Shown: positions 31,858-57,307 of the stretch, piece by piece
How positions within the stretch are numbered: position 1 is the stretch's first letter
How the letters are laid out: every line of letters begins with the position of its first letter
NCBI GenBank assembly: GCA_015179025.1
Contig: WHUX01000018.1
Location: 186,001-250,000, forward strand
Length of the DNA: 64,000 bases
Direction of reading: 5' to 3'
DNA from: Terfezia claveryi
Taxonomy: Eukaryota > Ascomycota > Pezizomycetes > Pezizales > Pezizaceae
The notes under the pieces: model-generated
Told to the model about the DNA's origin: nothing
Database searches by the model: none
The model's input: the letters and a program-made list of their open reading frames with translations, nothing else
Program-made: the position numbers and the translations under genes

Positions 31858-32159
31858 CAAGGCGAGGTCTCCTACCGCCTCTACTAGCTCTCATTGTAAG
31901 AGGTTGTTTATTGTTATCTGTCGTTGTTATCCATCTCGTTATCTTTTATTTTCGTCGGGAAGTTTATTTCGCTGTCGGCCTTGGCTTTCCGAGGCCTCCT
32001 GTATATATACCTTGATCTCTCGCACTCTAGCGTACAGCACTTGGTACTATCATGAAGTCAGCCTAAGTTCACCCCGTGATCTTGACTAATCTCACTTGTA
32101 CCAATCTAGTCTGTAGTACCGATCATGTCACGGCTAGTCTCGTGCCGTCCTTGATTCAA

Positions 32160-32345
32160 ATTTGCATCAGACATATATTTTGCTTCTATTGGAGTCTTTT
32201 GCTAGGTTTCCGTTAGTCTGGTTGCATGGGTTTCCGTAGGGTTAAATTTAAATTCGTAGAGACATTTATTTGGCTTCTATTCGAGTCCTTTGCCAGGTTT
32301 CCGTGGAGTGAATTTACATGAGATTTTGCATTGGCTTCTGTCACG
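32160..32345. repeat. ~97-bp tandem repeat, one copy carrying a tiny insertion
   Basis: Two similar units: TTGCTTCTATTGGAGTC...AGGTTTCCGT (from about 32180) and TGGCTTCTATTCGAGTC...AGGTTTCCGT (from about 32270), with a partial third. Unit 1 has 24 extra bases relative to unit 2 (see 32205-32237). Confidence 0.75.
32205..32237. repeat. Tiny insertion 1: 15-bp core in 9-bp direct repeats
   Basis: GGTTTCCGT (32205-32213), core TAGTCTGGTTGCATG (32214-32228), GGTTTCCGT (32229-32237). The neighbouring repeat unit has a single GGTTTCCGT at 32296-32304, which serves as an empty site. Confidence 0.75.
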
Positions 32346-32589
32346 AGCCCTAGTAGTGACTTCACTAGTAAGACCTATGTAAAGTTTCCATAGGACGAGA
32401 CCATAATATGCGAAACCTAAAAAAAGTTTTGTTCGAAACTTCAAAAGGTTTATCTGAGAGCTCTAAAAGTTTCCCAGGAAACCTTTGGTGGTTTCCCATA
32501 CAATTGTTGATGCGAAACCTCTTTTGGTCTCACTCTTGAGACCTGACCAAATGAACCACAGTGAGTTGCGTGTAACGCGAGTTCACTGT

Positions 32590-33558
32590 ATGCCAAAAGG
32601 CTAAGTTGGCCATATAAGTTCCTCCAGAAATATCCTTATGCACAGAGGTCTCCATAACGCATACCTCCCCCCAGAGAGGCCTCTCATTATTGACAGTCCA
32701 TCCGACAGCATTTTGATATGGTGAAGATGTTATGTATTTTAAGGACCTATGTAGAACGTTATAACCAGACGACAGAGGAGCAATCGCCTATCAGTCCTAA
32801 TCTTGGTGGATTACCTGATAAGGTTTGACCAGACTAGATTAGGATTACCGGTAGTCCCAGAGCACTGCTCCGGTTTATGTCAGCACCTTGTATCTGTACT
32901 CCATCCAGAAGTATCTAGATATACATAAAGAAATCTACAACACCAGGGATGGCACTAAGAGCTGCCCGCACTGATAATTATTGTTGGTAATATTTTATTA
33001 TTGAGTACAGTTCATGTTTTTCCGCACTGATGTATGTATTTCATCTTCCATTTTTTTATTTTCTTTAAATACTCATTACTATTTTGGTACCCTCACTAAA
33101 TTACTACATTTGGTTATCGCATTCCCGGGGAAGACAACTCAAGATCTGTCCTCCCGAGGATTGCATTCCCGGGAAGGACAGAACACCAATAAAGCTCTGG
33201 GGGGGCCAATAGTCACCCTGAACCACTCGTCCTCATTCACAATCTGCGAGACAGCTCTAGAGGCTTAGACAACACTCAAAGCACACTCCGATGTAACCAC
33301 TTCCAGGGTTGCTAGCTAGCAATATCCAAATCAAACAAGATGGCATCAACATTGTGGTAGTGGTAGGTGGTCGGGTGATTCTGGTGAGAGGCTATGCGGG
33401 TTAAGAACGAAACCGTTTTTGGTCGCGCGTTGGTCCCATCATAATTAACCTCAGATTCCTGGGTGAATACTCACCTGACCTTGCTTGCGTGCTTTGTAAT
33501 TTTCGATCCATCAACCAGATTCCTCCCCTTCCTTTCTTGATTTCTTCCTCATCCCTAT
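32590..33558. other. Stretch without recognised gene
   Basis: Apart from the weak tiny insertion at 32817-32845, I see no gene, RNA or mobile element. A short inverted pair CCTAATCT/AGATTAGG lies around 32797-32843. Confidence 0.35.
32817..32845. repeat. Tiny insertion 2 (weaker), opposite orientation
   Basis: GATAAGGTT (32817-32825), core TGACCAGACTA (32826-32836), GATTAGGAT (32837-32845). The flanks match at 7 of 9 positions. Confidence 0.4.
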
Positions 33559-34016
33559 TCACACTCTCCCGCAGCTCTTTGCCCTGTTTGAGATTTTTTT
33601 CCCTCTCAATCCGGATTCCTTCCCTCTCTTTGCAGATTCCTTCCTTCTCTTCCAGATCCCACCCTCATCCCTCTCCACACTCTTCCATAGCTCTTCCTTA
33701 CCTCTAGTTAATGTCCTCTTCTCCGTTTTTATCCATTCCCGCTGTCTTGTAACTACCCCCGTTGCCAATTCAATTTGATTCTTCCATTCCGCTGCTCGCC
33801 TCCTTGCCGCTACCAGCACCTCCGTCAAACTCTTGTTCTCAAGCTTGGTTCATTGCCACGAGGTTGTTCAATGGGAGGCAGAGGGGGGGAAGGCCGCAGA
33901 GGACTGACATGGACTGGTGGAGTGGTTGATGCAGTGGAAGGGGGTGTAGTGGGGGGGGGATCAGCTTGGGCCCAGTAGGAAAAAAGGCTGAGCACCAAAG
34001 TATATGGTAAAACCAC
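33559..34016 (-). CDS. Possible small gene, low support
   Basis: Two adjoining minus-strand open frames. One (33825-34016) starts MVLPYTLVLSLFSYWAQA, shaped like a signal peptide, followed by a Pro/Thr/Ser-rich stretch. The other (up to about 33840 down to 33559) is a highly charged coiled coil (LVAARRRAAEWKNQIELA). They are in different frames and would need an intron; the coding strand is also a purine-rich low-complexity strand, which can create false frames. Unrecognised, and it may not be a gene. Confidence 0.25.
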
Positions 34017-34494
34017 TTTGTTGAGGGTGACAATGAACGGTACAGTAATCGGTCGGTTTCATGTATCTGTTGTGATGCAGAAGGTTGTTCATTCTCTCAA
34101 ACTATGCTAAAGCTCGCATACATACGAAAAGTTAGATTAGCTCGATTAGACTAGTTTTTCTTAAGGTTCCACAACGGGAAAGGGGAGGGACGGTTCCGGA
34201 GCTATATCTGTCTTTTTTTTGTTCCTTTCCATCATCGCATCATCTTCGTTAAATTCATATTCCTCACAAAGATCGTGGGTGGAGCTCTACTCTGTGTGTG
34301 ATTGTTTAGTCCTTGTTGAGATAAGAGTGATCCTCTTATCTCAGTGTCCTTCACTCCGCCGAGAGCACTCTCCGTCCTGCCCCGCCGACACTACCTCCAT
34401 CCCTCATTCAACACCCCCCATCTTGCATCCCCTCATCCTCACAACGAACTCAAACTTTAACGTTCTCCTTGTCTGCTGGATTACTTGCATTAGG

Positions 34495-34558
34495 TAGCTC
34501 TCCTTCTATGTATTATTCCATCGACATCTGAATCTCTGTCTACTAATACCTTGAGCAG
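34495..34558 (+). other. Likely 5' UTR intron of the coiled-coil gene
   Basis: GTAGCTCTCC donor, CTACTAATACC branch-like sequence and GAGCAG acceptor, just upstream of the start codon at 34607. Confidence 0.35.
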
Positions 34559-34606
34559 ATATACCTTTTGTTCTCTCAGGAGTCGTTTGACTCCCATCTT
34601 CCCATT

Positions 34607-35934
34607 ATGTCCAAGCAGACGTTTGCCAAAGCAATGTACTGCGAGTATGTGGCACAGATACCTCGCTTGCACCCAGAGGAGACTGTGGAGAGCATGGCCG
34701 TGCGGGTTGGAACTGCTATGGTTAATAATATGGGGCCAACTGTCCCTGAGTTCCATATTGAGGATTGCGTATTTGCGAAGCCCTATCGTGGTGAGTTTGC
34801 TATGTAGGCTCCGTTAATTTTTACTGACTAAGAGATTATAAGAAAACACGATTGCTTCCAAAAAGCAGAAAGAGGTCCCTTCTGGGGAACTTCTCATGAT
34901 TATGACCCCACCATCTGGCACTAATCCCGTCATACACACCCTTAAGGCTTGCAAAACCGCGTGTAGCGAGTCAGAGAGACAAGCCAAAGAAGCCCAGGCT
35001 GAAGCTAACGCTGAAAGGCTGATGCGTGAGGGTGAGCCTATCCCAGATGAGCCCTTCACTGAAGATATACTCTACTAACAATGGTGGCTTCTCTTTAGAA
35101 AGTGAAGCCGATAACCAGAAGCTGGAAAATAAGTACAAGCAAGCGGAGCGTAAGCTTCAGCAAGCCATGGATGACCGTGACAGAGCGCAGAGTGAACGTG
35201 ATAGTGCTATCAATGGAAAGGCTAAATCCGAGCAGGATTGGGACAGAGTCCTTATGCCTCTAAAAGAAAAATTCTGTACGGAGTGGGAAAGGGGACAGGA
35301 AGCAAAATTTGAGCGTCTTAGGAACTCCATTAAGGAGGATTTCAACAAACAACTGGCAGACCATCAAAAAGAGATCATGGACCATAAAAAAGAGATCATG
35401 GACCATAAAAAAGAGATCATGGACCATAAAAAAGAGATCATGGACCATAAAAAAGAGATCACGGACCTTAGGGTCACTACAAGGATTGTGAGTTCTAATT
35501 ACAGGATTCTATATCGCTTTCCATGCTAAGTTGGGCTAATCAAATCATAGCATACACAAGTACTGTCAGGATTGGCACTGAGGAACATGCTCAATGAATG
35601 TCGGGATTCATTTGCTAAAACGGCAGGATATGGTGATGGTTGGAGGGAGGTGAAGAAGGAGCTACAGGACAGAAAGATCACCCTCACCGAGGTAAAAGGG
35701 AAAATGGAGGGCGCTCTTCAACATGTGGACTGGGGATCAAATGGGGTGGGAAAGGTGGTGAGCTTCGTAATTGATAATTGGCCTATTAGGAGAGTAGGAA
35801 ATATATCAGCCCATGGTGGTGAGGGTGCCGAGGCTATGGTTTATAGGGATCAACTGGAGATGGTGATTGAGAGCATGAAGGATGAGAGTGACAAGAGGTT
35901 GTTGAAAAAACTCCAGGAATTTCTCCAGGAGTAA
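34607..35934 (+). CDS. Coiled-coil protein of unknown function, 379 aa
   Basis: Four exons: 34607-34790, 34843-35025, 35099-35487, 35551-35934, total 1140 nt. All introns are 52-73 bp with GTGAG donors and CTGAC, CTAAC or CTAAG branch points, and the phases agree, which strongly supports a real gene. The N-terminal ~120 residues hold MSKQTFAKAMYCEYVAQIP; then a long charged coiled coil (ESERQAKEAQAEANAERLM, KYKQAERKLQQAMDDRDRAQ); then a heptad-like repeat HKKEIMD five times, encoded by a 21-bp DNA repeat (35374-35465); then a compact C-terminal helical part with LRNMLNECRDSF, RRVGNISAHGG and LLKKLQEFLQE. The coiled coil suggests oligomerisation. I recognise no family. No signal peptide or membrane segment. 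Confidence 0.8.
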
Positions 35935-37482
35935 ATTGTAATTGTATATTTAAAAAGATATGTGCTTAAGGGGGGTTACGCCGAGCAATGCTCATATCCA
36001 AATTGGGAGAAGGATAAATTCCTTTGCAATGTGGGGCATCAGTTTGAGACTAGCATGAGAATAATTCCAATATCAGTCACGCTCCGCAATATTACTCACG
36101 AACCATTTCCATTCCATTTTCTAACCATTCCATTTTCTAACCACATCACGAAAAAAAATAGTTAGACGCCGCTGACGCCACCGGAGCCAAACTGCCCTCC
36201 AACTATTGTCTCCGGGAGACCGCTCTCCAACTCCTGTCTGCGGGAGCCCTCGCCGACTGCTAGTCTCCCATGTCCTCCCACTGGGTGCCAATCTCATGGC
36301 TGCCTCCGGTCGCCTTCCCTGCATCTTGACGCTACGGCGGGGATGCATATCCAGCTTCAGGCCTCCTAGGTCCAATGAACCATACCAATGGTTTAGGGGG
36401 TACCAGCAAGCAGGCATAGCAAATGTCCATCGTATTTCTAATTATTTATGTACACAAGAGATTAAGATATTGAGACAGTACTACCATTGTCCCTGGCCAA
36501 CCCTTGTCTATAGCACCTGCCGCTTCCGTAGACCCGCGAGCCATAGTTCCTGGCGCCAATACTGAGCATGCTAGTTCATGGAAGAGATACCAGTTTCCGC
36601 CAAGGGTGGGCCTGAACTGGGAGGTTGAAAACCCACATGCATCCATGAGGCACATACCTTATACATGCATCTGATGGACAAGCTGCATGGACTTCAAGTA
36701 AAATCAAGTATTCAAGCAAGACGTGACGACATTACGAGGGCCAGTGGCAGACCAATTTACTATGTTGATCTATTATGTATATCCTTACGCTTACCCTGAA
36801 GCTACCAAACACCGACCAAAGAACTTTATTTCAGAAAAGTGTCTAATAAACCACAATGCTCAATAACCATGGGAGGTAATTTTCTCTACCCTAAAGTCAA
36901 AAGAATGATTGATAAAGGCCAATAATTCTCTGCTACTACCGGAAACTCTGGTTTTCAGAGTTAACTGGTAAGTAGCATTCACGGGATCCGGGAGACACTA
37001 AAAGCACTTATTCTAGTTGTTTATATGAAATAGGAGCGCAAACTACTGATATGTTTTTTGGGGGAAAATGTATTAAAGATAGTTGCCTGCTTTTCTGATT
37101 TGGGAAGTGCCTTACGGTTAGGTGTAGTGAAAGAAAGGGGAATAAAATTCTTATTATAGAAGTCACAATCGCTGATAGAAAAAAAAAAAAAGGCAGAGTA
37201 TTTGTTTACGTACCGTCCCCTTCTTGAACTTTTCAGAAGCGGAGGTATCAGCTCGTTGACTTGAGTGCCACGTGTTACCCTGATGTTATACCCTCCAAAA
37301 AAAAGCTATTTAATGTTTCGGCTTAGTCTCTTGGTTATTTATAGATCCCTCCGGTTGGCCCACTGAAATTTCCTTCTAGGTCGCAATACAACATTCATAG
37401 ATGGCTTCCGGCTAATGCCCATTTTTGGGTTGCAGAGGTCGTATTGATCGAAGAGAGTAGAGAGACTTTATCTCAGGGTGCT
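35935..37482. other. Intergenic, no gene seen
   Basis: Short frames only. 36160-36260 is GC-richer with imperfect repeats (CTCTCCAACTCCTGTCT, CTCCAACTATTGTCT). Several A or T runs around 37170. Confidence 0.4.
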
Positions 37483-37953
37483 TCAATCGATATAATTACT
37501 TTGTAGTCTTATGCAAATAGCTATATAGAGTAGCCTAGTAGTCAAGGGCTTGGCATGGCTATTTCTGGCTAACCTTCCTGCATGTTCCAGTGGTAAGTAT
37601 TTAGCATAATTCTGTAAAGAAGTTAAAAACATAGAATCCGCCTGGTGATAGCAGTCAAGCATGACAGGAGCATAGAGTTCATCATCACTCATCGCCATCG
37701 TCAACATTATTAGCCGCGAAAACGACAAAGCGCTGCAAGCATGCGGGATGAAAGGAATGAGCACAGAAATCTCAGGTAAAAAGCAAACAAAACAAAAAAA
37801 CCAAGCACACCTGCTGGTGCCATAGCACGCAGCTTCAAGGTGACTAAACCCTCCAATCAATCCTTTCATGTGGCAATTTTTGGAGTCAGTTGGACAATAA
37901 TCTTTTTGCGCCGGATTTTCCCCGAATATTGAGAGCGAATAAGTTTTGTACAA
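37483..37953 (-). CDS. Hypothetical ORF, doubtful
   Basis: 156 codons without family features. A hydrophobic middle (WFFCFVCFLPEISVLIPF) corresponds to a T-rich stretch that looks more like an intron (GTGTGCTTGG ... GCTTGCAG). If so, the flanking parts are exons of an unknown gene. Weak. Confidence 0.2.
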   Translation of the reverse strand: MYKTYSLSIFGENPAQKDYCPTDSKNCHMKGLIGGFSHLEAACYGTSRCAWFFCFVCFLPEISVLIPFIPHACSALSFSRLIMLTMAMSDDELYAPVMLDCYHQADSMFLTSLQNYAKYLPLEHAGRLARNSHAKPLTTRLLYIAICIRLQSNYID

Positions 37954-38052
37954 TTCCTTTGGTGCTTACGCATCTTTTAAGGGGTGTCGTGCGATGACGA
38001 ATATTCTAGACCCAAATATTAATGCTTGTTCAGGCTAAATACGGAAGGAATC

Positions 38053-38635
38053 TCACCTTGAAGAGCTACATGATGAGGATAATCCCTTCTCGTCTACCGT
38101 GATTTGCATTTCACCACTAGATGTAGTAAGCGAGGAATCACAATTCCAACGAACTCCCAGGAAACCAAGACACCAGCTCTTGAAGCACCTGGCAGCCCCT
38201 GCGATTCTATGGCATATACCCGCCGTAGACGAGGTTGACCGCCACCCTTTCTGCTCAACGTCCACAAATCCTGCATTCAACAATTGACGTTTAATCAACA
38301 ACGCAGTTTCATCTGGAGTTGGAAGATGTGGAACAGCCTTTAGTGGGGCTGGAGGGCTCTGTCCTAGTGAACTAGGCTTTGACAAATGGTGTAGACGAGC
38401 CTGTGGTGCTGCCACTGGACCAGTTTCGACTACTTCAATCCATCCACCTGGTTTTGTCTGTCTAAAATCCAGCCAATGAACATTAGCCTGTTATCTTTCT
38501 ATAAATGAATGTACCCCGTCTGGGAGGCATAATGGATGCGCGGGTGAATCACTCAAATGCGAGACGGAATATCCTAGCTCCATCTTGTATCCCGGATCTC
38601 TGGTAGCGAATGTGCACAAAGTCGAAGAGTTGGTG
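38053..38635 (-). pseudogene. Remnant of a class I SAM-dependent methyltransferase (LaeA-like)
   Basis: Minus-strand pieces resemble the second half of fungal LaeA-like methyltransferases: LFDFVHIRYQRSGIQD (about 38590-38635), then KPGGWIEVVETGP (about 38400-38445) and IKRQLLNAGFVDVEQKG (about 38250-38300). A plausible intron (GTACATTC ... TTTTAG, about 60 bp) separates the first two pieces. The SAM-binding glycine motif upstream and the C-terminal part are not recognisable and stops interrupt, so this is probably a decayed gene. Confidence 0.4.
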
Positions 38636-38639
38636 TGTT

Positions 38640-40815: not shown

Positions 40816-40817
40816 AT

Positions 40818-41434
40818 CTAATAGTTCCTGGCCATGTTTTGGCACGCTTTCTACAATTCAGAATACCATTAGCATCAACTCACTTGACTCGGGTAGTATC
40901 GGCAATTTCCCCAAGGGACAATGGTGACTTACCAGTTGCTCAAGGTACCATCCACAAACTGACATATCACCCTTGTAGTCGTCCATGCACTTTGTGAGGC
41001 TCTTCGCATCCGCCTCACAGTAGACGTTACTTCGGTCACCATAGCTGTTGGACGGAGCTTGGACTTGGGGTTGAGCAGGAGCAGCCTCAGCGGCGGCTGG
41101 CTGAGAGCCCCCACCACCGAAGAGTCCGGTGATACCGGCACCGACCATGTGGCCTACTGTAGAACCGACAGCCACACCACTATACAACAGTCAATATCAA
41201 AGCTTCCCAAGTGTAGGGTACAATAACATACGCTGCGGTGGAGGCCATCTGACCAAAGAGGCCTGGGCCCTGGGAGGCGGTTGCAGGAGGGTGCGCCTGG
41301 GCTGCAACTGGTGGGGGGGCATGCTGAACCCTAGCCGGGACAGCAGCGGTCGAGGCGGGCCTGCTTTGTTGCTTAGGAGCGGAAGGGGCAAAAGTTGGGC
41401 GCCTAGGCGCAGCTCCTCCGCGTTGACGAGGCAT
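40818..41434 (-). CDS. MIX17: CHCH-domain mitochondrial protein (CHCHD2/CHCHD10/Mix17 family), 160 aa
   Basis: Twin CX9C protein of the mitochondrial intermembrane space, imported and oxidised by the Mia40 pathway; relatives affect respiration and cristae. Exons on the minus strand: 41232-41434, 40933-41179, 40818-40850 (483 nt). Introns of 52 and 82 bp have GTATGT and GTAAGT donors. The N-terminus is basic and Pro/Ala-rich (MPRQRGGAAPRR), suiting a targeting sequence. The family's central hydrophobic block is clear: MASTAAGVAVGSTVGHMVG. Twin CX9C: CEADAKSLTKC and CGWYLEQLKAC, the second completed by the small last exon (KACQNMARNY). All four Cys are present and the length is typical. Confidence 0.93.
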
Positions 41435-42248
41435 CTTGATTGTTATATGAGAGAATGAATAAACCTGCGTAGCGTTGATTGATCGAGATCGACAGGGAAT
41501 TGAAAGAGGCTGCAGAGAAGGGAACCGAATATATACGGGGTACCTGGATTAGTAACACTTAGAAACTAGAAAATTCATCGTGGCTTGGCAGGGAGTAGTT
41601 ACATGTTACCACAATGTATAGCTGTATGACATTTGAGCTAAATAAACATTAATGTTTCTCTTCCAAAGTACTGTACCCGTTTGCCAAAAGTTTCTACTTA
41701 CATTATGTACCTTGGACTTATTCCGCAGTCCCCTCTATTGAGAATATATTTAACACTGTTGTTGTGCTCCAGCTACATATCTTAGCTGCTGATTATTCAG
41801 CGGCATCGCCGTATTATAACATGAGACTAGCCTTACGGATGTGTGCAGATGACCCCGTCGAAACCCTAGACCCAAACTAGGCTAGAGCGAACATGCGGCA
41901 CAATATGTAGCCACATGTGGCGCCTATAGGAGAAGGTAATCTGGTGCCAACCAGACTTGGTGCCAACCAGACTAGGTAATCTGGTGCTATGCAGAGGTAT
42001 GTATGTAGTTACATTCAGCTACGCATCGCCTTCGGCTCAGCTTCGCTTCATTGAGATTCTGGATAATGCCGATTGACCGTTCGGGGGGTCGAAACGTTCA
42101 ATTTTACGATGCTGCATCGCCGGAAGTCGCTCTAGGAGGAATGATTCAGAATGGTTCGTTAACAGAAGCAACTTTCTGGGCATGCTGGGGATCCTGCTAA
42201 TTACTGAGACGCCTATCCGAGTACGAGAGAGGTTTGGGTCACATAGTT
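41435..42248. other. Intergenic region upstream of the HNH relic
   Basis: Contains the divergent 5' flanks of MIX17 and the HNH gene and the tiny insertion at 41935-41987. No gene seen. Confidence 0.45.
41935..41987. repeat. Tiny insertion 3: doubled core in exact direct repeats
   Basis: GGTAATCTGGTGC occurs at 41935-41947 and 41975-41987. Between them lie two head-to-tail copies of the core on the minus orientation (CCAACCAGACTT, then GTGCCAACCAGACTA). The last 15 bases equal the core at 43228-43242 in reverse complement. Confidence 0.7.
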
Positions 42249-43139
42249 ATGGCGACAAATACTAAGCTGGAGGCCGGACACTATGATGTCTATTGCGATA
42301 GTAAGTACTGAGATCTAGGAGTATGTCGATTGATCTGTGCTAATGAGTAAGTCCGATTAATGTCAACAATGAACCGTGGGTGTTTCGCTTAATTTCTCAT
42401 AACGTATTAGGCAGAGATGGAGCGTTTATGACTGGAATTCGCGCTCGCGATGGAAGATGTGTTATTTCTGGAGTCATGAATCCAAGATTAAGAGTTGCTC
42501 GTGGGGAGTGGGCTGGTTTTGAAGCAGCACATATTTTTCCATTAGAAACGAAGAATCCAGTATGGATTCAGGGAATTTTTCGGTCGGTGGATTACAGATA
42601 TGGATGATAATAATGGATCAATTCTTTACAGAACGGGATGTTGCTTCAGTCAACCATTCATCAGCTATTTGACCAATACCTGATATCGGTAAATCCTAGT
42701 CTGGTTAGGTGAATCCGGATGTGAGTATTGTATTAAATCAATAGTTGTTGAAGTTGATACTAACTAGCTGACAGGACAATTACAAGGTTGTTGTGTTTAG
42801 TGATGATTATTTAGGATTGGACGGAAGAGTGCTTGATCCAGTGTGTCGAAATCCGAATGATTTGTATTGTGTGTCAGACGAGCTTTTGAGATGGCATTTC
42901 TGACAGTCCATATTCGCAAACATGAGGGGAGTGGGAGAGACGATATTCGAGAATGATTTTTCAGGGGGTGATATGATTGGGGTGATAAGCAAGGAGCCAT
43001 ATGCAAAGGAGAGATTGGAAATAATGGAAGTCGAGAGGTTAATAGAATTTTTTTATTTTTATTTTTTAAGAATGTTTTCAAAGTATTCTATTATTGAAAG
43101 GGCGGGGGGACAATGCTCTCCTAGCAGTACCTACCTATA
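42249..43139 (+). pseudogene. Fungal HNH nuclease-domain protein (broken)
   Basis: Members carry an HNH_2-type metal-dependent nuclease fold; cellular role unknown. Starts near ATG 42249 (MATNTKLEAGHYDVYCD) followed by an intron (donor GTAAGT 42301). The HNH block is clear: RDGRCVISGV, GFEAAHIFPLE, then WITDMDDNNG, QNGMLLQSTIHQLFDQYLI, FSDDYLGLDGRVLDPVC, ELLRWHF and MRGVGETIFE. A proper intron (GTGAGT ... GATACTAACTAG ... GACAG, about 42721-42774) precedes DNYKVVVF. Breaks: frame changes around 42572-42580 and 42617-42630, a 20-bp insertion at 42697-42716 (tiny insertion 4), and TGA for Arg after RWHF (CGA to TGA). The coding pieces are otherwise well kept, so inactivation looks recent. Confidence 0.75.
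42688..42716. repeat. Tiny insertion 4, inside the HNH gene
   Basis: GGTAAATCC (42688-42696), core TAGTCTGGTTA (42697-42707), GGTGAATCC (42708-42716). Without the 20 bases 42697-42716 the codons read ISVNPD and join the next exon in frame. Confidence 0.7.
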
Positions 43140-43218
43140 GTCTTGGCATGAGACTAGATGCCCAAAGTGCAGGGGAACTAATATTTTGTATTAGTCATCG
43201 ATCCGGGGATTAAAGTAA

Positions 43219-43251
43219 CCACTCACCTAGTCTGGTTGGCACCCACTCACC
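43219..43251. repeat. Tiny insertion 5: 15-bp core in exact 9-bp repeats
   Basis: CCACTCACC (43219-43227), core TAGTCTGGTTGGCAC (43228-43242), CCACTCACC (43243-43251). The best-preserved example. Confidence 0.8.
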
Positions 43252-44104
43252 TTAGTTAAAATTCGTCGAGTGCGATTGGTACGTTAGGTCCGGCGTGGAG
43301 GAGCTAGGACAGAGACTGGTTCCAGAGAGGGGACTTTTGTTTCCTCTTCATGACTACCGAACTCTCCCTGATGACTAACCTTTCCCCATCGTCAACTGTT
43401 TTGTCCACTATTTCTCATCCATCTCAGCTCACCCTTTGTCTAACATTGCACAACCCCTCGGTAACTAGTTCTAACTGGTATGTATCTGTCTGTGCAACCA
43501 GACTACTGTCTAGTCTATCCTCGCTGGACATGTTGCTCGATGTAATCCATTTCTGACTTGTGCGAAGCGTAACGCTACGAGGGTCTAATCGAGACTAAGC
43601 GTAACGTAGGTACCTAAAGCGGCTTCATCTGATTTTAACATTGAAGAGACCGACTTTAACGCTATATCGCTCGGCATCTAGTCTAATTTAGGAAAGAGAG
43701 TAATCATAAGGTTAATTTTGCAAGCATCTAATTACATTGATCGCGGCTACATAAATGACGTACAGTACATGTGAAGTTGTTTATTATTGAATGTTCTGTT
43801 TTTTATTGGGGAGTTTTGTCTCATTGAATGTGTTTTTATTTCATTTACTTTGTTTGCTTAATGATTCGGGGTGCATATAATGGAGGTTACGAGTATTGTA
43901 CTCAGTTATAGAAACGCGTCACATGACTTGTCGGATACAACCCGTCGTCATTGATCGTGCCCCGCCAAGCCCAATCAAGCTTGACTCTTGATCCGTTGGC
44001 CCCGCCAAAACCCTTACTTATCTGCGTGAAAAAACAATCGGTATTACTCTCAACACTGACGACAAAACTCCATCCCATTTTCACATAAGATTCTCTAAAA
44101 CCCA
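43252..44104. other. Intergenic, upstream of MMS2
   Basis: No gene seen apart from tiny insertion 6. The 250 bases before 44105 should hold the MMS2 promoter; no TATA box stands out. Confidence 0.4.
43486..43514. repeat. Tiny insertion 6 (weaker), opposite orientation
   Basis: CTGTCTGTG (43486-43494), core CAACCAGACTA (43495-43505), CTGTCTAGT (43506-43514). Six exact flanking bases, more if one indel is allowed. Confidence 0.4.
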
Positions 44105-48590: not shown

Positions 48591-48884
48591 ATATGCTATA
48601 GCTAGTTGAATATGCGCGTTATAATCTATCGGTGAATTAACAAAAGTCGCTACATAGTGCATAAATCTAAATGCAACAACATGGAATGTCTTACCCAGCA
48701 CGAGCTTGCAAAAACGCTGGGACTAGACTTGACTTCCAAGTACAACACTTGAGCCTAATCGGATTTGCGCCTTGCTGTAAATATTTGCGCGAATTCATGT
48801 CGTAAGTTAAGTAGGTTGTCCAATTTGTCCTTTGCGAAGCATGGTGCGGGGCACAGTTTGATTTAGCAACCCCGTATGGGTTTG

Positions 48885-48960
48885 TGGTTTTTGCCGGTAG
48901 GGCAAGGCCCGTTCTACCAGAGCCTGTGTTCGATTCCCAGTAGCTCTGTAAAGGAGTTAA
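48885..48960 (+). repeat. tRNA-like fragment (B-box), possible SINE or relic
   Basis: Contains GTGTTCGATTCCCAG (48926-48940), a good B-box with an almost complete T stem (CTGTG/CCCAG, one mismatch). The A-box side is poor and I cannot fold a full tRNA. Confidence 0.3.
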
Positions 48961-50760
48961 AAAAGAATTTTCCTGTACTGTAGCAGGCGTCGGTGCCGAG
49001 TAGGAAAAAAATAGTTAGGTAGCTCGACTCGGGCCGACGCGGCACAGTTTACGGATCTTACCCACCTCTGCAATGAACAATTCCCTTCGAAATTGCTGGT
49101 TCGAGGCTAGAACTCTCACTCTATTTCCTAGGCAAGTTACTCTCGAAAAACTCTGGTTTTGATTTTATGGACTACTTTTTGTATCCGGACTTATGTAGAT
49201 GAGCATGATGCTGCCACTCCCTAGGCAGAGCAAGTGCAAGTTATGCTAACCGAAGTAGCCCCGTGATAAAGAGCCCCAATAATATACGGAGTATACAACA
49301 CCTTCTACTTCTCGGTAGCCATCATATTCCTTGCAAGATTGCAGTTCCGAGAACTAGTTCCGGTGTTCATGCACAATTAGTACCTACAATGACTTGTCCA
49401 TCCTTTTTTCGGAACACTGAATTTCTAATTATCACAAGCAACTTCTGGATCTTGATACCAGACTGATATGACCTAACCCCAGCCCTTGGGCTATCGGCTC
49501 CGGTTACCGCTCATGCGTAGACCACCCTCACGCGAGAACTCGTAACACTATAGTTGGAATATGAGGTATCCCACTCTTGTTTGCGTCTTATTCTTGCTAT
49601 CACCCATTTTTAAAGCAAAAACGGTCCCATTATCCTCCTACCCAGTTAGGTTAGACAAACCAAACTTTGAACTCACCGATGACAGATGTTTATAACGTTA
49701 TGCTGGAGGTTGCCTTGTTATCCAGACTCTCTACTTTTACGTCCGTGTACAATGCAGGCCACAGTATTCATGTAAAAGTGGCATATCTCCGTTTTTCTGT
49801 CCATGTGTCCTTTCGAGCCTGTTGAAACTCCCTCCGTACATTGCTTTCCTTGCACTCTGTTCCACAGCTGCGTGTGCTACTTCTCTGCATGATCCATGAC
49901 TGCTCAATTGCTCTACAGCATCCTGCGGCTGTGCGTGGCCTTCTGCTGCATTCTATACCCGCACAGAAATGTGTGTTTATGGAGAAGGAGGTTGATGCCT
50001 CGAAGGAATTTGAATACTCGTGGAGGAGAGAGCTACGGTAAACCCATAGAAAAGTGGGTTGAGGATCCAGTGGAAGGAGGGGTTTGAGGGTATTCGGCGA
50101 GATGAGAGAGTAGAAGAGGATCCATCTGATATCTTGTTCTGCGGTAATACTGTGGCTTGATAACTATGCCGGTCTGCCACCTCTGTAGCATCGATGTGGA
50201 AGTAGAAAGTACTGACTCGCTAGGCACAACAGACTAAACTCGCTAGAAAAAATAGATTTGCTTAAAACGGAAGCTCGGCTTAGTCTGGTTGGCAGCTCGG
50301 GCTATAGGTATCGTTTTTCATAGGCACATGATCGATCAATCATAGAATAGAAATACAACACTTTGCAGATTCCTCACAGGATCGTGAGTCGAGCTTTTTA
50401 ATTCTGAGTGTGATTGATTTATCTCTTTCTTCAGTTTTGGCAGTACTAGAAAGACCCGGCGTGACTCTATTCTTCTGGGTAAGTCGGATCTAAGCACACT
50501 TATTCTTTACTCCGCTGCAGAGTCGTACCAGGCTGGAACTCTGCATGATTCTAGTATTGCATTGAAAGATTTGCATGTTTGTTTACTAATAACGTAGAGG
50601 CTAGTACACAGGTGACAACGCCAAGTAACTAGCCCCGTCCGCCGCCAACGCCAAGATTGTCAACTTTTCCTGGCAAACTACGGAGTAACTTCCCCCACAA
50701 AGCTCCAGCTGCTCAATAACACAGCTCAAACCAACCCACCACATCCTCCACACCACAAAA
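48961..50760. other. Intergenic, no supported gene
   Basis: Only short frames. Contains tiny insertion 7 at 50272-50303. The final 150 bases are the NOP16 promoter region. Confidence 0.4.
50272..50303. repeat. Tiny insertion 7
   Basis: AGCTCGGCT (50272-50280), core TAGTCTGGTTGGC (50281-50293), AGCTCGGGCT (50294-50303). The flanks are identical apart from one extra G. Confidence 0.65.
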
Positions 50761-51619
50761 ATGGGTCGCGAACTTCAAAAGAAAAAGAACCGTAGCTCCA
50801 TTCCTCGCCACACTAGGCGGCGGAACCCGCGAATCCACAAGATCAAGAGTTTCGGGAACGAGATCATTGCGCAGAATTGGTATGTTGCGTTAGCTTTGCT
50901 GACTGGAAATACTGGCGGGAACTGAAATGCTGACCTTGTGGTTTCGTGTAGGAATAAAAATGAGACGCTGCAGCAAAAGTATGTAGTTTGTTACTTCTTA
51001 GGCTCCTGTTGGGAGGGAATCGGGAGAATAGGTGAATGGATAATGAATGAGGTTAATGCCGGTTATTGATTTTATTTTTGTGGCATTAGCTATAAACGCC
51101 TTGGGCTCGCCGTAAAGCTCAATAAGCCCACCGGCGGAGTCGAGAAATCCCTTTCTAGTTCTACATCCACCACCACCCCCGCGGCCGCGGGTGCCTTTCC
51201 CCCCAGCGTCTCCCTCACTGCCCCGCAGTGCCCCATTGCACCAGGCGAAGCCCGCATCGAGCGCGACGCAGATGGAAACATCGTCAACATCATCTACGGC
51301 GCCACGGCGAAGCTCGTCTCGACCAACTCGAAGCCACGGCTATGCAGCAGAATGGGCACTCGGGAGAACCGACAACAGAAGTTGTCAAGGCGCTGATAGA
51401 ACGTGCAAGTAGGGGGTAAAGGTGGAGCGGAACCAGAGTGGGAGGGAGAAGCAGTGGATTGAGAGGTTGGTGGAGAGGTATGGTGAGGATTATAGGAAGA
51501 TGAGCTGGGATCGGAAGCTGAATCCGCATCAGCAGAGTGAGGGGGATATCAGGAAGAGGGTGGTGAAGTGGAGGCAGATGAAGGAGAAGGGGGCGAAGGG
51601 GGAGGCAGGCGCTGCTTAG
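50761..51619 (+). CDS. NOP16: Nop16, 60S ribosome biogenesis factor (two frame breaks)
   Basis: Nucleolar protein needed for maturation of the 60S subunit. Exons 50761-50879, 50952-50978 and 51090-51619. Exon 1 is the family's basic start MGRELQKKKNRSSIPRHTRR with IHKIKSFGNEIIAQNW; exons 2-3 give NKNETLQQNYKRLGLAVKLN. The C-terminal block QWIERLVERYGEDYRKMSWD and RKLNPHQQSEGDIRKRVVKW is a strong family hallmark. Within exon 3 the frame changes twice: somewhere at 51296-51330 and at the G5 run 51412-51416. One extra G in that run would restore the frame. Given strict conservation of both sides, assembly error or a very recent mutation is more likely than old decay. Confidence 0.88.
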
Positions 51620-51839
51620 ATTCTTTTTTCTTTTTCTTTTTTTTTTTTTTATTTTAAGATTTGTTCGATTCTGATTGTATCAATACTTTGCCTTTCGATG
51701 TATTGGCGTTTAGGGGATCTCAAAAAGTCGAAGGACATGTAGGTACCGGTAAGAAGTAGTACGTGAGAACCACAGTAACCTTACCTAAGTATATGTAAGT
51801 ACAGTTATATCAATCATATCCGCCTAACTATCGCGACCC

Positions 51840-51900
51840 ACATCCGTCCGTCCGTCCGTCCGTTAGATATTCTATCTACATATCTATCTATCTATCTATC
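51840..51900. repeat. Microsatellites (TCCG)n and (TATC)n
   Basis: TCCGTCCGTCCGTCCGTCCG around 51846-51863 and TATCTATCTATCTATC around 51885-51900, in the NOP16-MET1 spacer. The spacer also holds T-rich runs at 52008-52052. Confidence 0.85.
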
Positions 51901-52421
51901 GCACATCCCTCACACACCAAATAAAATTAAAAAAACAGCCATATCCCCCCGCGTAGCAATTTTCCGCGGAACAAATTCCCCAACCACATGCCAAGACACA
52001 TGAAATTTTTTTTAAATTTTTTTTTATTAATATTTTTTTTATTTTTTTTTAGATGACCTTGGTGGGGGAGGCCCCGATTTCGATACGATGGAAAAAAAAA
52101 CTAAGTACAGGGGCTTTTAGGACTGGTGGTGCTGCGGTGTGGTGGGGTGAGGTATGGCGAAGTTGGGGGACTCGGAGGCTTTCTCCGGTGTTTTGTTCTC
52201 TTGGATGGATGAATGCCCCCCCGTATTCGAATATCTAATATATATTGGTATATGTATAATATACATATATATATATACATACCTGAATTGACCCAATGTG
52301 CGAAGACCTAGACTAACTTACTATACCCCTCCTCCATCCCATCCAATCCTGCTCAATTGGCCTTCCTCACACATATTTGGAGCTCGTTCAAGGAAACCCC
52401 CCCCCCCTCCGGTAACGCATC

Positions 52422-54146
52422 ATGCCCTCCATTCTCATCGCCACAGACTGCACCTCCCACATCCACCTCATTGTCGGGCACACGCCTCTCGCCTCCGCCC
52501 GCGCGACCCGCTCCCTTGAGCTCGGCGCCCGTGTAAAACTCCTCGCACCTGCAGACGCTCCCCTACACTACAACCTGACGCAGCAGATCTCCTCCGGCGC
52601 CGTCGAATGGATCCAGAGAGACATAGTGACGAGGGAAGATTTGACGACGCTGGGGAGGGAGGAGGTGATGGGGGTGGTGGATGCGGTGTTTGTTACGTGA
52701 AGGTGGGCTGTGCACAGAGTACGTATTACCCACCAACTTTCTTTTCCCCTATTCTATAAGACAGGCGACTAATTGTGTGCTTTTAGATGCGCAGATTTCG
52801 GCGCTGTGTAAGAAGCTGCGGATCCCCGTGAATGTCGCAGACTCGCCGTCGCTCTGCTCATTCACACTACTCTCGACGTACACCGACGGCCCCCTGCACA
52901 TTGGCATCACAACCTCAGGAAGGGGATGTAAACTCGCGTCTCGAATCCGCAGGGAAATCGTCTCGCACCTCCCACCACGGCTGGGGAGACATGCGATCGC
53001 TTTGGCCGCCTACGGAGGAGGATCTGGCAGGAGGATTATGCTGCCGTCGACGCTGGGGGAGAGGGCGTGCCGGTGGAGGAGGATGAGGATTTAGGCCAGG
53101 GCGCGGCTTTTAATAAGCTTGTCGTTGAGAATGAGGAGGGGTGGGAGGAGAGGAAAGGGAGGAGGATTAGGTGGCTGAGTCAGATGTGTGAATATTGGCC
53201 GCTGGAGAGGTTGTGTGCGTTGGGAGAGGGGGATGTGGAAGAGTTATTGGAAGGGTATAAGAAGGGGGGAGATCGTGCAGTGGCGCCAGCAGGAGGAGCA
53301 CCACTCCTATCCAATGGATCAGAATCAGAAGCCGTGGTGCATCATGCGCAGTCGATCCCTCCCCCTCTTCCCATCCTCCCAAAGCAAGGCAAGATCCTCC
53401 TTGTAGGATCTGGCCCAGGCCACCCTGACCTCCTCACCACCGCCGCCCTCAACGCAATAACCTCCGCGGACCTCATCCTCGCAGACAAACTCGTCCCTCC
53501 TCCCGTGCTCGCGCTCATCCCCCGGCGCACGCCCGTGCACATTGCACGGAAATTCCCCGGCAACGCCGACGCCGCGCAGGAAGAGCTCCTCTCACTTGGC
53601 CTCTCCGCCTTACAATCCGGAAAAACGGTGGTGCGGCTAAAGCAGGGAGATCCGTACATCTACGGCCGTGGCGGCGAGGAGTATCTCTTCTTCTCCGCAA
53701 ACGGCTACGCGCCTATCGTCGTCCCCGGGATCACTAGCGCCCTCAGCGCGGGTGTGTTTGCAGGCATCCCGCTCACGCATAGAGGTGTAAGCGACCAAGT
53801 CTTGATCTGCACGGGAACAGGGAGGAAGGGGGAGCTGCCGGTGTGGCCGGAGTATGTAAAGGGAAGGACTACGGTGCTGTTGATGGCGCTGCATAGGCTG
53901 GGAGATGTTGTGGAGGGCTTGAAGAGTAGGGGTTGGGAGGGGGGCATGGCGTGTGCGGTGGTGGAGAGGGCGAGTTGTAGAGATCAGAGGGTCGTGAGGT
54001 CTACCTTAGGGGAGGTGGTTGCGGCGGTGGAGGAGGTGGGCAGTAGACCGCCGGGGTTGCTGGTCGTGGGGGAGGCGTGCGGAGTGCTGGGTGGTGTGTC
54101 GGATGGGAAGAGGTGGGTCGTGGAGGAGGGGTTTGGTGGGTTTTGA
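52422..54146 (+). CDS. MET1: Uroporphyrin-III C-methyltransferase with siroheme-synthase-like N-domain (Met1 type)
   Basis: Siroheme pathway enzyme: SAM-dependent methylation of uroporphyrinogen III to precorrin-2, supplying siroheme for sulfite and nitrite reductases. The N-terminal part (MPSILIATDCTSHIHLIVG, VDAVFVT, KKLRIPVNVADSPSLCSF, LLSTYTDGPLHIGITTSGRG) is the NAD-binding dehydrogenase/ferrochelatase-like domain found in filamentous-fungal Met1 proteins. The C-terminal SUMT domain is intact: LLVGSGPGHPDLLT, IARKFPGNADAAQEELLSLG, LKQGDPYIYGRGGEEYLFF, VVPGITSALSAGVF, LICTGTGRKGELP, VVERASCRDQRVV, PPGLLVVGEACGVL. One intron at about 52733-52794 (GTATTA..GCGCAG). Frame breaks: near 52696 and at the G4 run 52983-52986, where one added G restores LRRRIWQEDYAAVDAG. 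Stop 54144-54146. Confidence 0.9.
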
Positions 54147-54953
54147 TTGGGAGATGTGTGTTGTATGTTATAAGTTGAAGTTGAGGGTAATGGAAACCCT
54201 TTTTTATTTTTTATTTTATTTTTTTATTGATTTTTTTTCCTTTTTTTTTTTGATTTGATGTGGTAAATGAACCAAATACCTTGGATCGTATATAGTTTGG
54301 GTGGGGGGAGGGGGGAGGGGGGGGGGGGAGAGGGAGAAGGGTAGGGGTACTTTATTTTTAAAAAATATATATATATGTATCTACTGTATATCAGAAGTAT
54401 ACTTCATATAACGTCTAACTGGGTACAGTAAGAGTTACCGGTGTACCTTACTACAAAAAAATAACCCTTATTTTCTTCATCAATCTTATAATAATAAGAA
54501 ATAAATAAAAAAGCAATATACGAGTCCCATTCTATTACGGTACCCTAACTAAACTCCTTATGTAAGTCCACATTATTATTATTATTATTATTATTATTCC
54601 GCCCCTCTCACACCCCCACCTCCCCCAACAAAAAAAAAATAAAAAATAAAAAATAAAAAAATAAAAAAGGTAGATCGTACAGTATATATGTTACAATCTT
54701 TTTAGACAAAAAAAAAATTAAAAAAAAATTAAAAAAATCCTGTCGGCAAAAACAATTTATATTTTCATTCTCTAGTTGCGATATTATAATATGCGTTTCG
54801 TTGGATTATAGCCCTCTCTAGTTATGATTCTCCTCCCACTATACTGTATTCAAGTGTCGGGGATGGCCAAAGTCGGAATATATTTTTTTTAAAAAGAATG
54901 GTTCAGTTTTGGTATCACTGTACGAAAGCTCTCAAGATCCATGGTATAGAGGT
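54147..54953. repeat. Low-complexity spacer between convergent genes
   Basis: T-rich runs 54197-54252, G-rich run 54301-54332, (ATT)n at 54572-54597, A-rich runs 54630-54735. No gene. MET1 and CAB4 converge here. Confidence 0.75.
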
Positions 54954-56292
54954 TCACAAACCAACCACCAAACCCCCGATCATCCATGCCCTTCCCAACA
55001 CCTCCTCAAATCCCCCCCTCCTTCTCCCCCTTCTCGCCTGCCTCCCCCTCCTCCTCCTGATATCCGTACTACTCATCTTCAACCCTCCCCCTCCTTCCTC
55101 CTCTACAACCCCAACAACAAACATCTCCAACCCTGCCCACCCCTTCACCTTCCTCTCCCTATTAACCGCCTCCCCCCACCCCTAGTCTCCTCACTCACGA
55201 CCAACGCCGAAATCCCCTCCTCCGTGACCGTTGGTCCAAACGCATCATTGATCTCCACAATTTCCACCATCACCTTCCCCCATCCTCCGAGAGTTTGATT
55301 CTCGAGAAAAATTTTAGCCCCTCCTCCTTCTCCTCCTTAGTTTCAATTGCTGCCGCAGGGGAGAAGGTCAAGATGCTAGTGATGAAAGTGAGTGTGTCGT
55401 GGGCACGTTGAGTCCAAGGGTGAAGGAATTCCGCGTGTTTCTTGTTCTCAAGGAGTTTAGGGCCCGTGAGGCCTACGATCAGGCGGGGTGGTGATGGGGG
55501 CAGCGAGCCAGGGGAAGGTGCGCAGGGGGATCGAGGAGCAATGCGGCTGTGGTTAGGAGGAGCTTATGACCTGCGTGGAGGTGGTCGAAGGTTCCTGCGA
55601 CTATTCATTGGGATATGAGCTTTTATTATACAACGGTAGAGAGAGTATTCAAAGGGCAAGTTATTTACCAATAACAACATCATGCCTCCTCGCCTTCTCC
55701 TCATTCGACTCATGTTTTCCATCCGCTTCCCCCTCTACCTTCCCCCCCTGGGCGCCCCCCGGCGGCGTAAACTCCACAACCATTACCCCCTCCACACTAA
55801 CCCCCATCTTCCCCACCCAACTCGGGCGGCTCCATCCTTCGCCTCCAACAACATACACCACCTTCCCCCACCTCCTCCCCGCCTTCGGGCCCAGTATCAA
55901 CCTAACACTAAACACCGGTCCGAGCCCCCACTCCCCAATCCGTCCCTCCCCCTCCCCATCCTCATCCTCATTCTCATCCCAATAAAACACAACTCGAACA
56001 TCTACGTCCCCCCCATTCTGCTTACTCCCTTCAGTCTTCCCTAGCTCCCTGAGAGACGTAGCTACAAGTGAGTATATGGCGGTTAATATCCTCTGCGTGC
56101 GGTCGCAGGATGCGGAGCGAGGCGAGCCGGGGGCAAGGAATGGCGCGAAGAGGGCGATGGTGAGGCTGGGGTGGGTAAGGCATTGGAGGTGGTGTGGGTG
56201 GGCGGGCGGTAGTGTTTAACAATCTGCTGCTGCGAGGCGGAAGGGGGCGGGGGAGGTATGTGGTGGATTAGGAGGGTGGAGGTTGAAGGCAT
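54954..56292 (-). CDS. CAB4: Pantetheine-phosphate adenylyltransferase (several frame breaks)
   Basis: Coenzyme A pathway: transfers AMP from ATP to 4'-phosphopantetheine. Exons 55669-56292 and 54954-55600 around a 68-bp intron (GTAAAT..GAATAG). Exon 1: MPSTSTLLIHHIPPPPP, then LTHPSLTIALFAPFLAPGSP, ILTAIYSLVATSLRELG and VVFYWDEN. Exon 2 has the nucleotidyltransferase signature GTFDHLHAGHKLLLTTAALL, RLIVGLTGPKLLENKKHAEF, EIVEINDAFGPTV, ISALVVSEETRGGG, and the hallmark SSTDIRRR. Frame breaks occur near 56185-56195 and at homopolymers: G5 at 55496-55500, C5 at 55277-55281, C6 at 55172-55177 (plus strand). In the last two, one extra base restores the frame exactly. An essential single-copy gene is unlikely to be this broken, so assembly error is the better explanation. 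Confidence 0.87.
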
Positions 56293-57307
56293 TGTCAGTG
56301 GCTGTTGCTTCAGAGTCTATAGGCTACAGACTTCCAAGAAAATTTAAAAAAAAAAAAAAAAAAAAGTCTCATGCCAAGACTCTAGTCGATCGCATTTGCT
56401 GATAGCACTATAAAGTTGATGTATTGTAGCTGAGTCCGTAAGGTTTAAGTGAGTAAGCACTGGAGGTGTGTACAACTATAACGTTATAAACAAATATGAG
56501 ACTAAAAATGATAACTAGACTATAAATTGTGTGGTAGAGAGACTACTAAGATAGGACTAGCTTAATTACAAAAAGGGTAGACTGAGAGATACCGGAAAAG
56601 GTATAAGCCAAAAGAGGACTTAGGGTGGCTACGAAGGGATAGGCTAATCAGACTAAGGACTATGCCTCTACGAGTCTGATTCATCCAACGCTACCGAAAC
56701 AAGAAGCGTACTACATTGGGAGACTTTCCTGCATGATTACTTACTCAGTATTAGCATGGCGATCTGAAGCTCTAGAGCAGACAGGATGCCTCATTTTCTT
56801 CAGTCTATGGTCATAGATGTCAAAAATACGAGAGTTCATCTATTATAACCTGACTGCAAAGTTACTACCAGAGCTACGGTAGTGTTGTGGTCAATTCCAA
56901 AAAGTTGACGAACCAAGATGTCGCCTTCACATTTAACAAACTAACTATATACTGTATATATGTACATATACCAGTGGTTTTGCCGGTGCTTCTGCTGGGG
57001 ATCCTAGTGTACATTTATAATGTAGATTTAAAGGCGAAGTAGTCTGGTTAGGGCGAAGGGCTATTATAGGTACTCTAACTGCCAGGGCAAGGCCACAGAA
57101 GCAACCTGCTCGGCGATAGGAAGCTTTTATTTTTGCTTTTTATGCGCGCGTGCCAAGACAAAGCGGGGTGGCTTAACACGTAGCTCGACAATTCAATCGG
57201 CTTCCCACGGTTTTCAGGTAACCCCCCCCCCCGCAGTGCTTCTTCTCCTTTACTATAGGCACACGACTGCGATACCTAAGTGCAATATCCAGTGACTGTC
57301 CAGAAAC
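56293..57307. other. Intergenic with dispersed-repeat fragment
   Basis: 56755-56832 resembles 63266-63345 (GATGCCTC, TTTTCTTCAG, CAATCTGAAGCT shared with few differences). Contains tiny insertion 8 and an A run at 56346-56366. No gene seen. Confidence 0.45.
57031..57058. repeat. Tiny insertion 8
   Basis: AAGGCGAAG (57031-57039), core TAGTCTGGTT (57040-57049), AGGGCGAAG (57050-57058). Flanks match at 8 of 9 positions; the shortest core. Confidence 0.55.

Follow-up and report, generated by a model that had tools for sequence, protein, structure and literature searches.

Tiny insertions with one fixed end and 9-bp target duplications in the genome of Terfezia claveryi

The window, a stretch of 64,000 nucleotides of the T. 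claveryi assembly GCA_015179025.1 (contig WHUX01000018.1, positions 186,001 to 250,000 of the forward strand), includes short sequences that lie directly between two copies of a target-site duplication (TSD) of about 9 bp. The first-pass annotation had named six such sites and four weaker candidates. The sites with their strands are as follows.

32098..32124, + strand: weak site; TSD 8/9 GTACCAATC/GTACCGATC, 9-bp insert TAGTCTGTA
32205..32237, + strand: 9-bp TSD GGTTTCCGT, 15-bp insert TAGTCTGGTTGCATG, TSD; perfect repeats
32817..32845, - strand: weak candidate; TSD 7/9, 11-bp insert TAGTCTGGTCA
41935..41983, - strand: exact TSD CAGATTACC, doubled 31-bp insert TAGTCTGGTTGGCACC AAGTCTGGTTGGCAC
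42688..42716, + strand: TSD 8/9 GGTAAATCC/GGTGAATCC, 11-bp insert TAGTCTGGTTA
43219..43251, + strand: exact TSD CCACTCACC, 15-bp insert TAGTCTGGTTGGCAC
43566..43606, - strand: exact TSD, 23-bp insert TAGTCTCGATTAGACCCTCGTAG of the TAGTCTCGAT subfamily
50214..50245, - strand: TSD 8/9, 14-bp insert TAGTCTGTTGTGCC
50272..50303, + strand: TSD AGCTCGGCT/AGCTCGGGCT, with a one-base gap or 7/9 ungapped, insert TAGTCTGGTTGGC
57031..57058, + strand: TSD 8/9, 10-bp insert TAGTCTGGTT

Three of the six sites named earlier are perfect (32205-32237, 43219-43251 and 41935-41983), two match at 8/9 (42688-42716 and 57031-57058), and 50272-50303 attains just 7/9 or needs the gap. None of the four weaker candidates holds alone: the flanks match at 7/9 at 32817-32845 and at 57606 (the latter at an offset of 37 only), and at just 6/9 at 28849 and 43486-43514. 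A 7/9 match alone is weak, as shuffled flanks give at least 7/9 in about 11.5 of 133 copies. Three window sites with at most one mismatch had been overlooked, namely 43566-43606 (exact), 50214-50245 and 32098-32124 (both 8/9). In a MAFFT alignment, a diverged tandem copy at 32263-32345 has a single GGTTTCCGT and lacks the insert of 32205..32237.

The pattern of an insert with flanking repeats is real and genome-wide, as had been proposed. In the 72.6-Mb genome, the 15-bp core with at most two mismatches was found at 3141 + 3137 sites, as compared with 31 + 34 for the reversed control. Detailed scans were made on a sample of about 272 kb and 30 loci. This sample is biased, since the region C2:190001-390000 was picked for its richness in core matches (215 per Mb, as compared with 86 per Mb genome-wide) and the 30 further loci were picked by the exact core. 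An exact 9-bp repeat flanked 31 of 133 core copies, as compared with 0.66 when the flanks were shuffled. A scan of the sample that was blind to the core returned TAGTCT as the commonest first hexamer of inserts between exact 9-bp repeats. TAGTCT alone had an exact 9-bp repeat at 47 of 364 occurrences, whereas a sample of 60 hexamers matched in composition (mean 162 occurrences) gave a mean of 0.22 and at most one. Copies sharing an identical 60-base context were counted once in the hexamer, duplication-length, run-on, target-motif and distinct-site counts, and low-complexity targets were left out of the core-blind scan, the hexamer test and the target-motif, short-spacer and 200-2000 bp tests described below.

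The duplication has a constant length of 9 bp. Once targets containing the end letters of the element itself were excluded, the anchored duplication was 9 long in 33 and 10 long in 8 of 353 occurrences (34 and 9 of 362 before), where 0.15 and 0.05 were expected. Among 40 exact duplications, 29 were exactly 9 and 8 exactly 10 long; run-on past 9 was no more than chance, and hence there is no sign of junction microhomology. No strong target motif was seen, each position in 80 rows holding at most 0.14 bits. Single mismatches inside the duplication favour its inner side, positions 1-2 accounting for 16 of 28, a pattern that looks as if the inner junction had been trimmed.

That these sequences are insertions follows from repeat copies that have neither the insert nor the second 9-mer. 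In the sample, an empty paralogous site with a single 9-mer was found at 97.8% identity, and genome-wide all 40 scored places (74 candidates) corresponding to the same insert were empty with a single 9-mer. For another insert, 39 of 40 scored places (189 candidates) were empty, the fortieth being the filled locus itself. The earlier claim of integration with target-site duplication is thus borne out by the fixed length together with these empty sites.

The 80 rows of the sample, 76 of which were one-ended at first count, were reduced to 74 distinct sites by dropping four rows with the element's own end letters in the duplication and two opposite-strand rows of sites already counted. Three composites and two sites with only the last five letters of a second end were put in their own classes, leaving 65 one-ended and four two-ended sites. 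The second 9-mer at the border of the one-ended sites is exact in 37 of 65 and has a changed base in 28 of 65. The lengths of the one-ended inserts fall into classes: 9 bp (n = 2), 10-11 bp (n = 16), 12-13 bp (n = 4), 14-15 bp (n = 17) and 23-38 bp (n = 26), with none at 16-22 or 39-44 bp. The size of 10-15 bp given previously therefore needs widening to 9-38 bp, inserts of 23-38 bp being common. The shared core survives as a shared start, the invariant part being TAGTCT and not the whole 15-mer. The dominant type is GGTTGGCAC, other subfamilies continue with GGTTGCAC, GGCTTG, CGATC or CATG, and CGTGCC and CGAACCC are each seen in one or two inserts. At the variable end, the match of inner ends to AGACTA was no closer than that of internal ends taken at random (1.46 and 1.43, before row cleaning). 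Many longer inserts end just beyond the centre of a small palindrome, and the tails of the 26 longer one-ended inserts pair with their own arm (mean stem 2.65, as compared with 1.94 when permuted, 0 of 1000 as high). Two-ended copies also exist: both exact 15-mers lie within 60 bp in 46 copies genome-wide, some being full palindromes and many having unequal arms, and a search for TAGTCT end pairs with a matching duplication, up to 12 kb apart, returned only pairs of 30-34 bp, the two-ended site of 18 bp having emerged in the count of distinct sites. The distinction between fixed and variable ends, the common 23-38 bp inserts and the TAGTCT subfamilies had all been missed at first pass.

Long elements with the same terminus were also sought. 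One element of 2.3 kb, with inverted repeats of about 650 bp, has ends of the TAGTCT kind at both termini. Barring overlaps, nested or local tandem copies and this one long element, no repeat family above 45 bp starts at the usual core end in the 272 kb and 30 loci. Neither were exact duplications in excess at 200-2000 bp (1 found, 1.24 expected) for 112 copies without a near duplication. The MULE transposase domain has 21 matches in the genome, and no transposase gene flanked by TAGTCT ends came to light, the C773 element being the only one of these 21 places read to its ends. This Mutator-like element was rejected as the source because its termini are GAGATAACATTTG and its duplication is 10 bp, as read by eye. 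For Merlin transposons, which make duplications of 8-9 bp, the one Pfam model used for the transposase (PF12762, IS1595-type DDE) had no match in the genome. A 20-mer search returned one bacterial contig, where about 0.5 is expected by chance, and none among viral contigs.

The explanation we favour, with a nearly even chance of being right, is that one arm of a foldback terminal repeat is joined to the target by a DDE transposase, probably Mutator-like, with a 9-bp stagger, and that the other side is sealed through end joining by the host; the mechanism is what we infer. The mobile unit would be a single arm of a foldback (palindromic) terminal repeat, the 3' end of which the transposase would join to one target strand, the other strand being cut 9 nt away. 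The far side might then be closed by end joining, onto the opened palindrome tip in the case of the products of 23-38 bp and onto a shortened arm in the case of those of 14-15 and 10-11 bp. The outcome would be duplication, one arm and duplication; retention of the second arm as well would leave a two-ended element of 18-60 bp. The reading draws on the fixed duplication without a strong target motif, the 65 of 74 one-ended sites and their length classes, the lack of excess at 200-2000 bp, the inner-side mismatches without microhomology, the tail stems, the 46 two-ended copies, the 2.3-kb element and the empty sites. We know of no experiment showing insertion of a single arm by a Mutator-type enzyme.

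Several observations count against insertion of a single arm, besides the termini of C773 and the fruitless search for a TAGTCT-ended transposase gene. The anchored duplication reaches at least 7 in just 15 of 47 core copies in the C2 region and the window. Five of the 28 single mismatches fall at the outermost duplication position, and imperfections are therefore not confined to the inner side. A tail stem of at least 3 bp is present in just 12 of the 26 longer one-ended inserts, and whole-insert folding of 31 inserts was no better than that of shuffles (mean z -0.26). Insert L028, whose empty site is the best of all, keeps five letters of the second end. As for the 2.3-kb element, its flanking 9-mers match at 7/9 only and its left end has a doubled cap.

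An unlikely alternative is a stereotyped excision footprint, in which a longer two-ended element with a 9-bp duplication would have been cut out exactly at one end and inside the arm at the other, leaving a single arm. The discrete length classes, the existence of a long element that terminates in the same manner and the frequent alteration of the inner duplication side, as end joining would do, all agree with such an origin, and exact 9-bp duplications are slightly raised at spacers 0-9 (70 over ten spacers, as compared with 47 over the eleven spacers 16-26). However, if each side were repaired on its own, roughly 86 extra remnant-free duplications would be predicted, given the ratio of 65 one-ended sites to 6 with all or part of a second end and the 32 exact TAGTCT cases at spacers 8-45 in the C2 region and the window; the excess is at most about 27. 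This test speaks only moderately against a footprint. The lack of a repeat family above 45 bp at the usual end in the sample, the exceptions named above aside, and the lack of an excess of long inserts with the duplication at 200-2000 bp also count against it. Of the two readings offered originally, a tiny inserted sequence is thus a somewhat better fit than an excision footprint, there being no length tail to 2 kb and, in the 272 kb and 30 loci, no long family at the usual core.

It is rather improbable that the inserts began as ordinary tiny two-ended palindromic MITEs and lost the second arm later through palindrome instability. The unequal arms of many of the 46 two-ended copies, the 2 of 74 sites retaining just five letters of the second end and the many longer inserts halting near the palindrome centre would fit this, but a random deletion is not expected to end at the duplication border, where all 65 one-ended sites have their second 9-mer, 37 of them exact. 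Very unlikely is an origin by target-primed reverse transcription, as in SINEs and LINEs, from a small RNA with 5' truncation and a 3' end that stays constant (...CCAGACTA). It would account for one fixed and one variable end, but it fits poorly with a duplication constant at 9, the lack of a strong nick-site motif and of a length tail, and the absence of any sign of junction microhomology; nor did an Rfam scan of the window give a match above the gathering score. An assembly or library artefact, such as oligonucleotides put in during tagmentation by an enzyme with a 9-bp stagger, is scarcely credible: Tn5 tagmentation likewise yields 9-bp duplications, but the core is unlike the Tn5 mosaic end, there are several diverged subfamilies, the duplication carries a base change at 28 of the 65 one-ended sites, and two tiny inserts recur at matching positions in the two arms of the C773 element and, as judged by match span, also lie on contig C81.

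Compared with known systems, the tiny inserts share a fixed duplication of about 9 bp with Mutator-like elements, which make 9-10 bp duplications in this genome and have long terminal repeats with internal tandem arrays (the C773 and 2.3-kb elements), but they mostly have one end and no interior (65 of 74 one-ended). Like MITEs, they are non-coding, high in copy number and flanked by a target duplication. Unlike MITEs, which end in a pair of inverted repeats and whose length usually exceeds about 50 bp, they measure 9-38 bp and have two TIRs in just 4 of the 74 sample sites, with 46 exact close pairs as against 6278 core sites genome-wide. They show neither the variable duplication length of SINEs and LINEs nor a strong nick-site motif. 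One-ended transposition (Tn3-family, IS91 and Helitron-type) likewise has one precise and one variable end, but its products measure hundreds to thousands of bases, whereas the tiny inserts are bounded near 38 bp. The exact 15-mer and such inserts were not found described in open-licence full-text literature. Cut-and-paste excision footprints (abstract of PMC4561436) similarly leave a few terminal bases beside duplicated target bases; the tiny inserts differ in that most of them consist of a single arm, 10-38 bp long and falling into discrete classes, with arm-free remnants only slightly raised. The Galileo and Styx solo-TIRs are also single terminal repeats, defined by the lack of a partner nearby, and new Styx solo-TIRs arose from local triplication; the portions of these two sources available describe no units of 9-38 bp with a fixed duplication (PMC3573991, PMC10853768).

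The inserts may possibly, and with somewhat less assurance than attaches to the mechanism, represent mobile DNA of a new class, made up of single-ended insertions of a hairpin arm, up to about 38 bp long, in which a transposase joins one foldback end and the host closes the other, with thousands of copies in this one genome. If so, we know of no smaller family of mobile DNA. Repeat finders of the usual sort probably overlook insertions this short, so that mobile families altering genes in steps of about 18 to 47 bases may be present in genomes without having been noticed. Insertion of one arm would also suggest that a transposase can use a single end in nature, where such use has so far been approached mostly in vitro. 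Since many sister copies of some insert-bearing repeats are empty, both timing and mechanism are directly testable by comparison of strains.

The core TAGTCTGGTTGGCAC, the 15-bp sequence of the dominant insert type, occurs at up to 2 mismatches 3141 times in the forward and 3137 times in the reverse orientation across the assembly (72,558,070 bp, 794 contigs; the window is C90:186001-250000), as compared with 31 + 34 occurrences of the reversed core used as a control. A second type, in which TAGTCT is followed by CGATC, was found genome-wide at 271+246 sites versus 1+1 for the control. The sample used for statistics, picked in part for its richness in the core, consisted of the window, 30 loci of 3 kb each, 200 kb of contig C2 and ~8 kb of contig C773, or ~0.5% of the genome.

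In this sample, an exact 9-bp repeat was present 8-60 bp downstream in 31 of 133 copies of TAGTCTGGTT (up to 1 mismatch), with 0.66 obtained for shuffled flanks. A scan blind to the core, for pairs of exact 9-mers 8-45 bp apart, returned 807 pairs, and the most frequent first hexamer of the insert was TAGTCT (47), followed by AGTCTG (14), which is TAGTCT shifted, GTGCCA (12), the opposite end of the 15-bp inserts, and a fourth hexamer (9) contributed mainly by one tandem array. TAGTCT alone had an exact repeat at 47 of its 364 occurrences, as compared with an average of 0.22 for 60 sampled hexamers that share its composition. Match lengths were then measured from this fixed end at 353 TAGTCT occurrences (362 before targets containing the element's own end letters were excluded); lengths of 7, 8, 9, 10 and 11-13 were observed 13, 13, 33, 8 and 4 times, against expected values of 0.70, 0.23, 0.15, 0.05 and 0.04, and one match exceeded 16. 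The duplication is therefore 9 bp long, at times changed or trimmed. Only 15 of the 47 core copies in the C2 sample and the window carry an anchored duplication of at least 7; age, nesting or cutting may account for the others.

The tiny elements are insertions, as places lacking them show. When the flanks of a 31-bp insert in locus L028 were joined, they aligned gap-free to C2:275628-275716 (97.8% identity), where the 9-mer is single, and genome-wide all 40 scored places (74 candidates) span the junction at no more than 4 bases from the insert-free length. For a 27-bp insert near C2:336352, 189 candidates gave 40 scored places, of which 39 are empty and the other is the filled locus itself. 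The window offers a further case, the repeat unit at 32263-32345, in which the insert of 32214 is absent. Further filled and empty sites were found in the terminal repeats of the following element and its relatives:

C773, 253000-260900 (loci L052, L051 and L053): Mutator-like element with inverted repeats of 2.7-2.9 kb that are rich in 38-bp tandem units.

Two tiny inserts were read at matching places in both arms of this element, which indicates that insertion came before homogenisation or rebuilding of the arms. The match span implies both inserts at C81:6723-6982 and one at C773:242858-243090; related repeats aligned without them on C527, C223, C179 and C91 (both sites) and on C79 (first site only).

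The initial set of 80 rows, with up to 1 mismatch in the duplication, was reduced to 74 distinct sites, of which 65 are one-ended, 4 (inserts of 18-34 bp) also have the second, inverted end, 2 retain only the last 5 letters of that end and 3 are composites. At every position of the target and its surroundings, the signal is at most 0.14 bits (80 rows). The one-ended inserts measure 9 bp (2), 10-11 bp (16), 12-13 bp (4), 14-15 bp (17) or 23-38 bp (26), and none falls at 16-22 or 39-44 bp. After TAGTCT, the types in the sample continue with GGTTGGCAC, GGTTGCAC, GGCTTG, CGATC or CATG, and more rarely, in one or two inserts each, with CGTGCC or CGAACCC. Of the 112 copies that had no near duplication, 6 have an exact one 45-200 bp away (0.23 expected), at least 3 of these being nested or tandem composites, and there was no excess at 200-2000 bp (1 versus 1.24 expected). 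In C2, the two strands are used nearly equally (18 versus 19 rows), and 14 of 37 rows lie less than 150 bp from another, as compared with 1.9 for random positions; 4 of these rows are both strands of two sites, which corrects the figure to 10 of 35. Dense clusters at C2:195876-196241 and C2:207192-207411 have tiny inserts within or adjoining one another, and include a 58-bp tandem repeat with one tiny insert per unit.

The variable, inner end did not resemble the cognate end (1.46 versus 1.43 matches). In the 26 one-ended inserts of at least 23 bp, the tail is more complementary to the insert's own arm than permuted tails are (2.65 versus 1.94, 0 of 1000 permutations being as high). A stem of at least 3 bp was found in 12 of the 26 (14 of 33 before cleaning), and these inserts stop just beyond the palindrome centre. 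The stems, read directly, vary: CCTC/GAGG, CTCT/AGAG, CTCC/GGAG and CCCG/CGGG. The upper bound near 38 bp and an inner end that lies at a palindrome tip suggest that what is inserted is a single foldback-end arm that was opened at its tip, and that the shorter products would be trimmed forms of it.

The first-pass annotation had offered excision footprints of a larger element as an explanation. This reading is weakened by the count of exact 9-bp duplications with spacers of 0-9: there are 70, versus 47 for spacers 16-26 (eleven spacers), and ~86 extra ones would be predicted if the two sides were repaired independently, although an asymmetric cut at excision would escape this test. As for joining by reverse transcription, the fixed duplication and the lack of any sign of microhomology (29 of 40 exact duplications are exactly 9 bp and 8 exactly 10) point instead to DDE strand transfer. 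For insertion of a single arm, the outer side would be joined by the enzyme, and the inner side would be a free broken end sealed through end joining. Mismatches in the duplication are mostly inner (16 of 28 at positions 1-2; position 9, the outermost, has 5 of the 28), as expected for such an arrangement.

Genome-wide, the usual type has 46 two-ended copies in which the two 15-mers are exact and lie no more than 30 bp apart; they include full palindromes, and many have unequal arms. A 2.3-kb element (L041:1862-4167) has inverted repeats of ~650 bp with 25-bp tandem arrays, and each end starts with a different TAGTCTGG cap. Its flanking 9-mers match at 7 of 9 positions. Of the 14 places in the genome that resemble its 165-bp end, 5 can be aligned starting at base 1. 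By eye, the 25-bp arrays resemble a 23-bp tandem unit, TCAGACATCTCCGGCATGAGCAT, present in 46 copies at window 805-1870.

The 9-bp stagger and a long-repeat element make a Mutator-like enzyme the candidate. For the MULE transposase domain the genome yielded 21 matches, and for Merlin-type transposases (one Pfam model, PF12762) none. The C773 element, which encodes MULE and SWIM domains and a DBD_Tnp_Mut match below threshold, is the only MULE element read to its ends; it was rejected as a source, its termini being different and its duplication 10 bp (TTTGAGAAAT, ends by eye).

Two other features of the window were recorded:

14249-18444, minus strand: LTR-type retrotransposon, with three adjoining ORFs that encode gag, reverse transcriptase, RNase H and integrase domains.
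53067-54146: tetrapyrrole methylase.

The methylase, the one protein used to identify the host, is 100% identical over its length to a record named Terfezia claveryi, which makes the host this desert truffle or a very close relative. A second T. claveryi record matches the methylase at 93% identity; the two records may point to cryptic species or to two versions of the gene that share this name.
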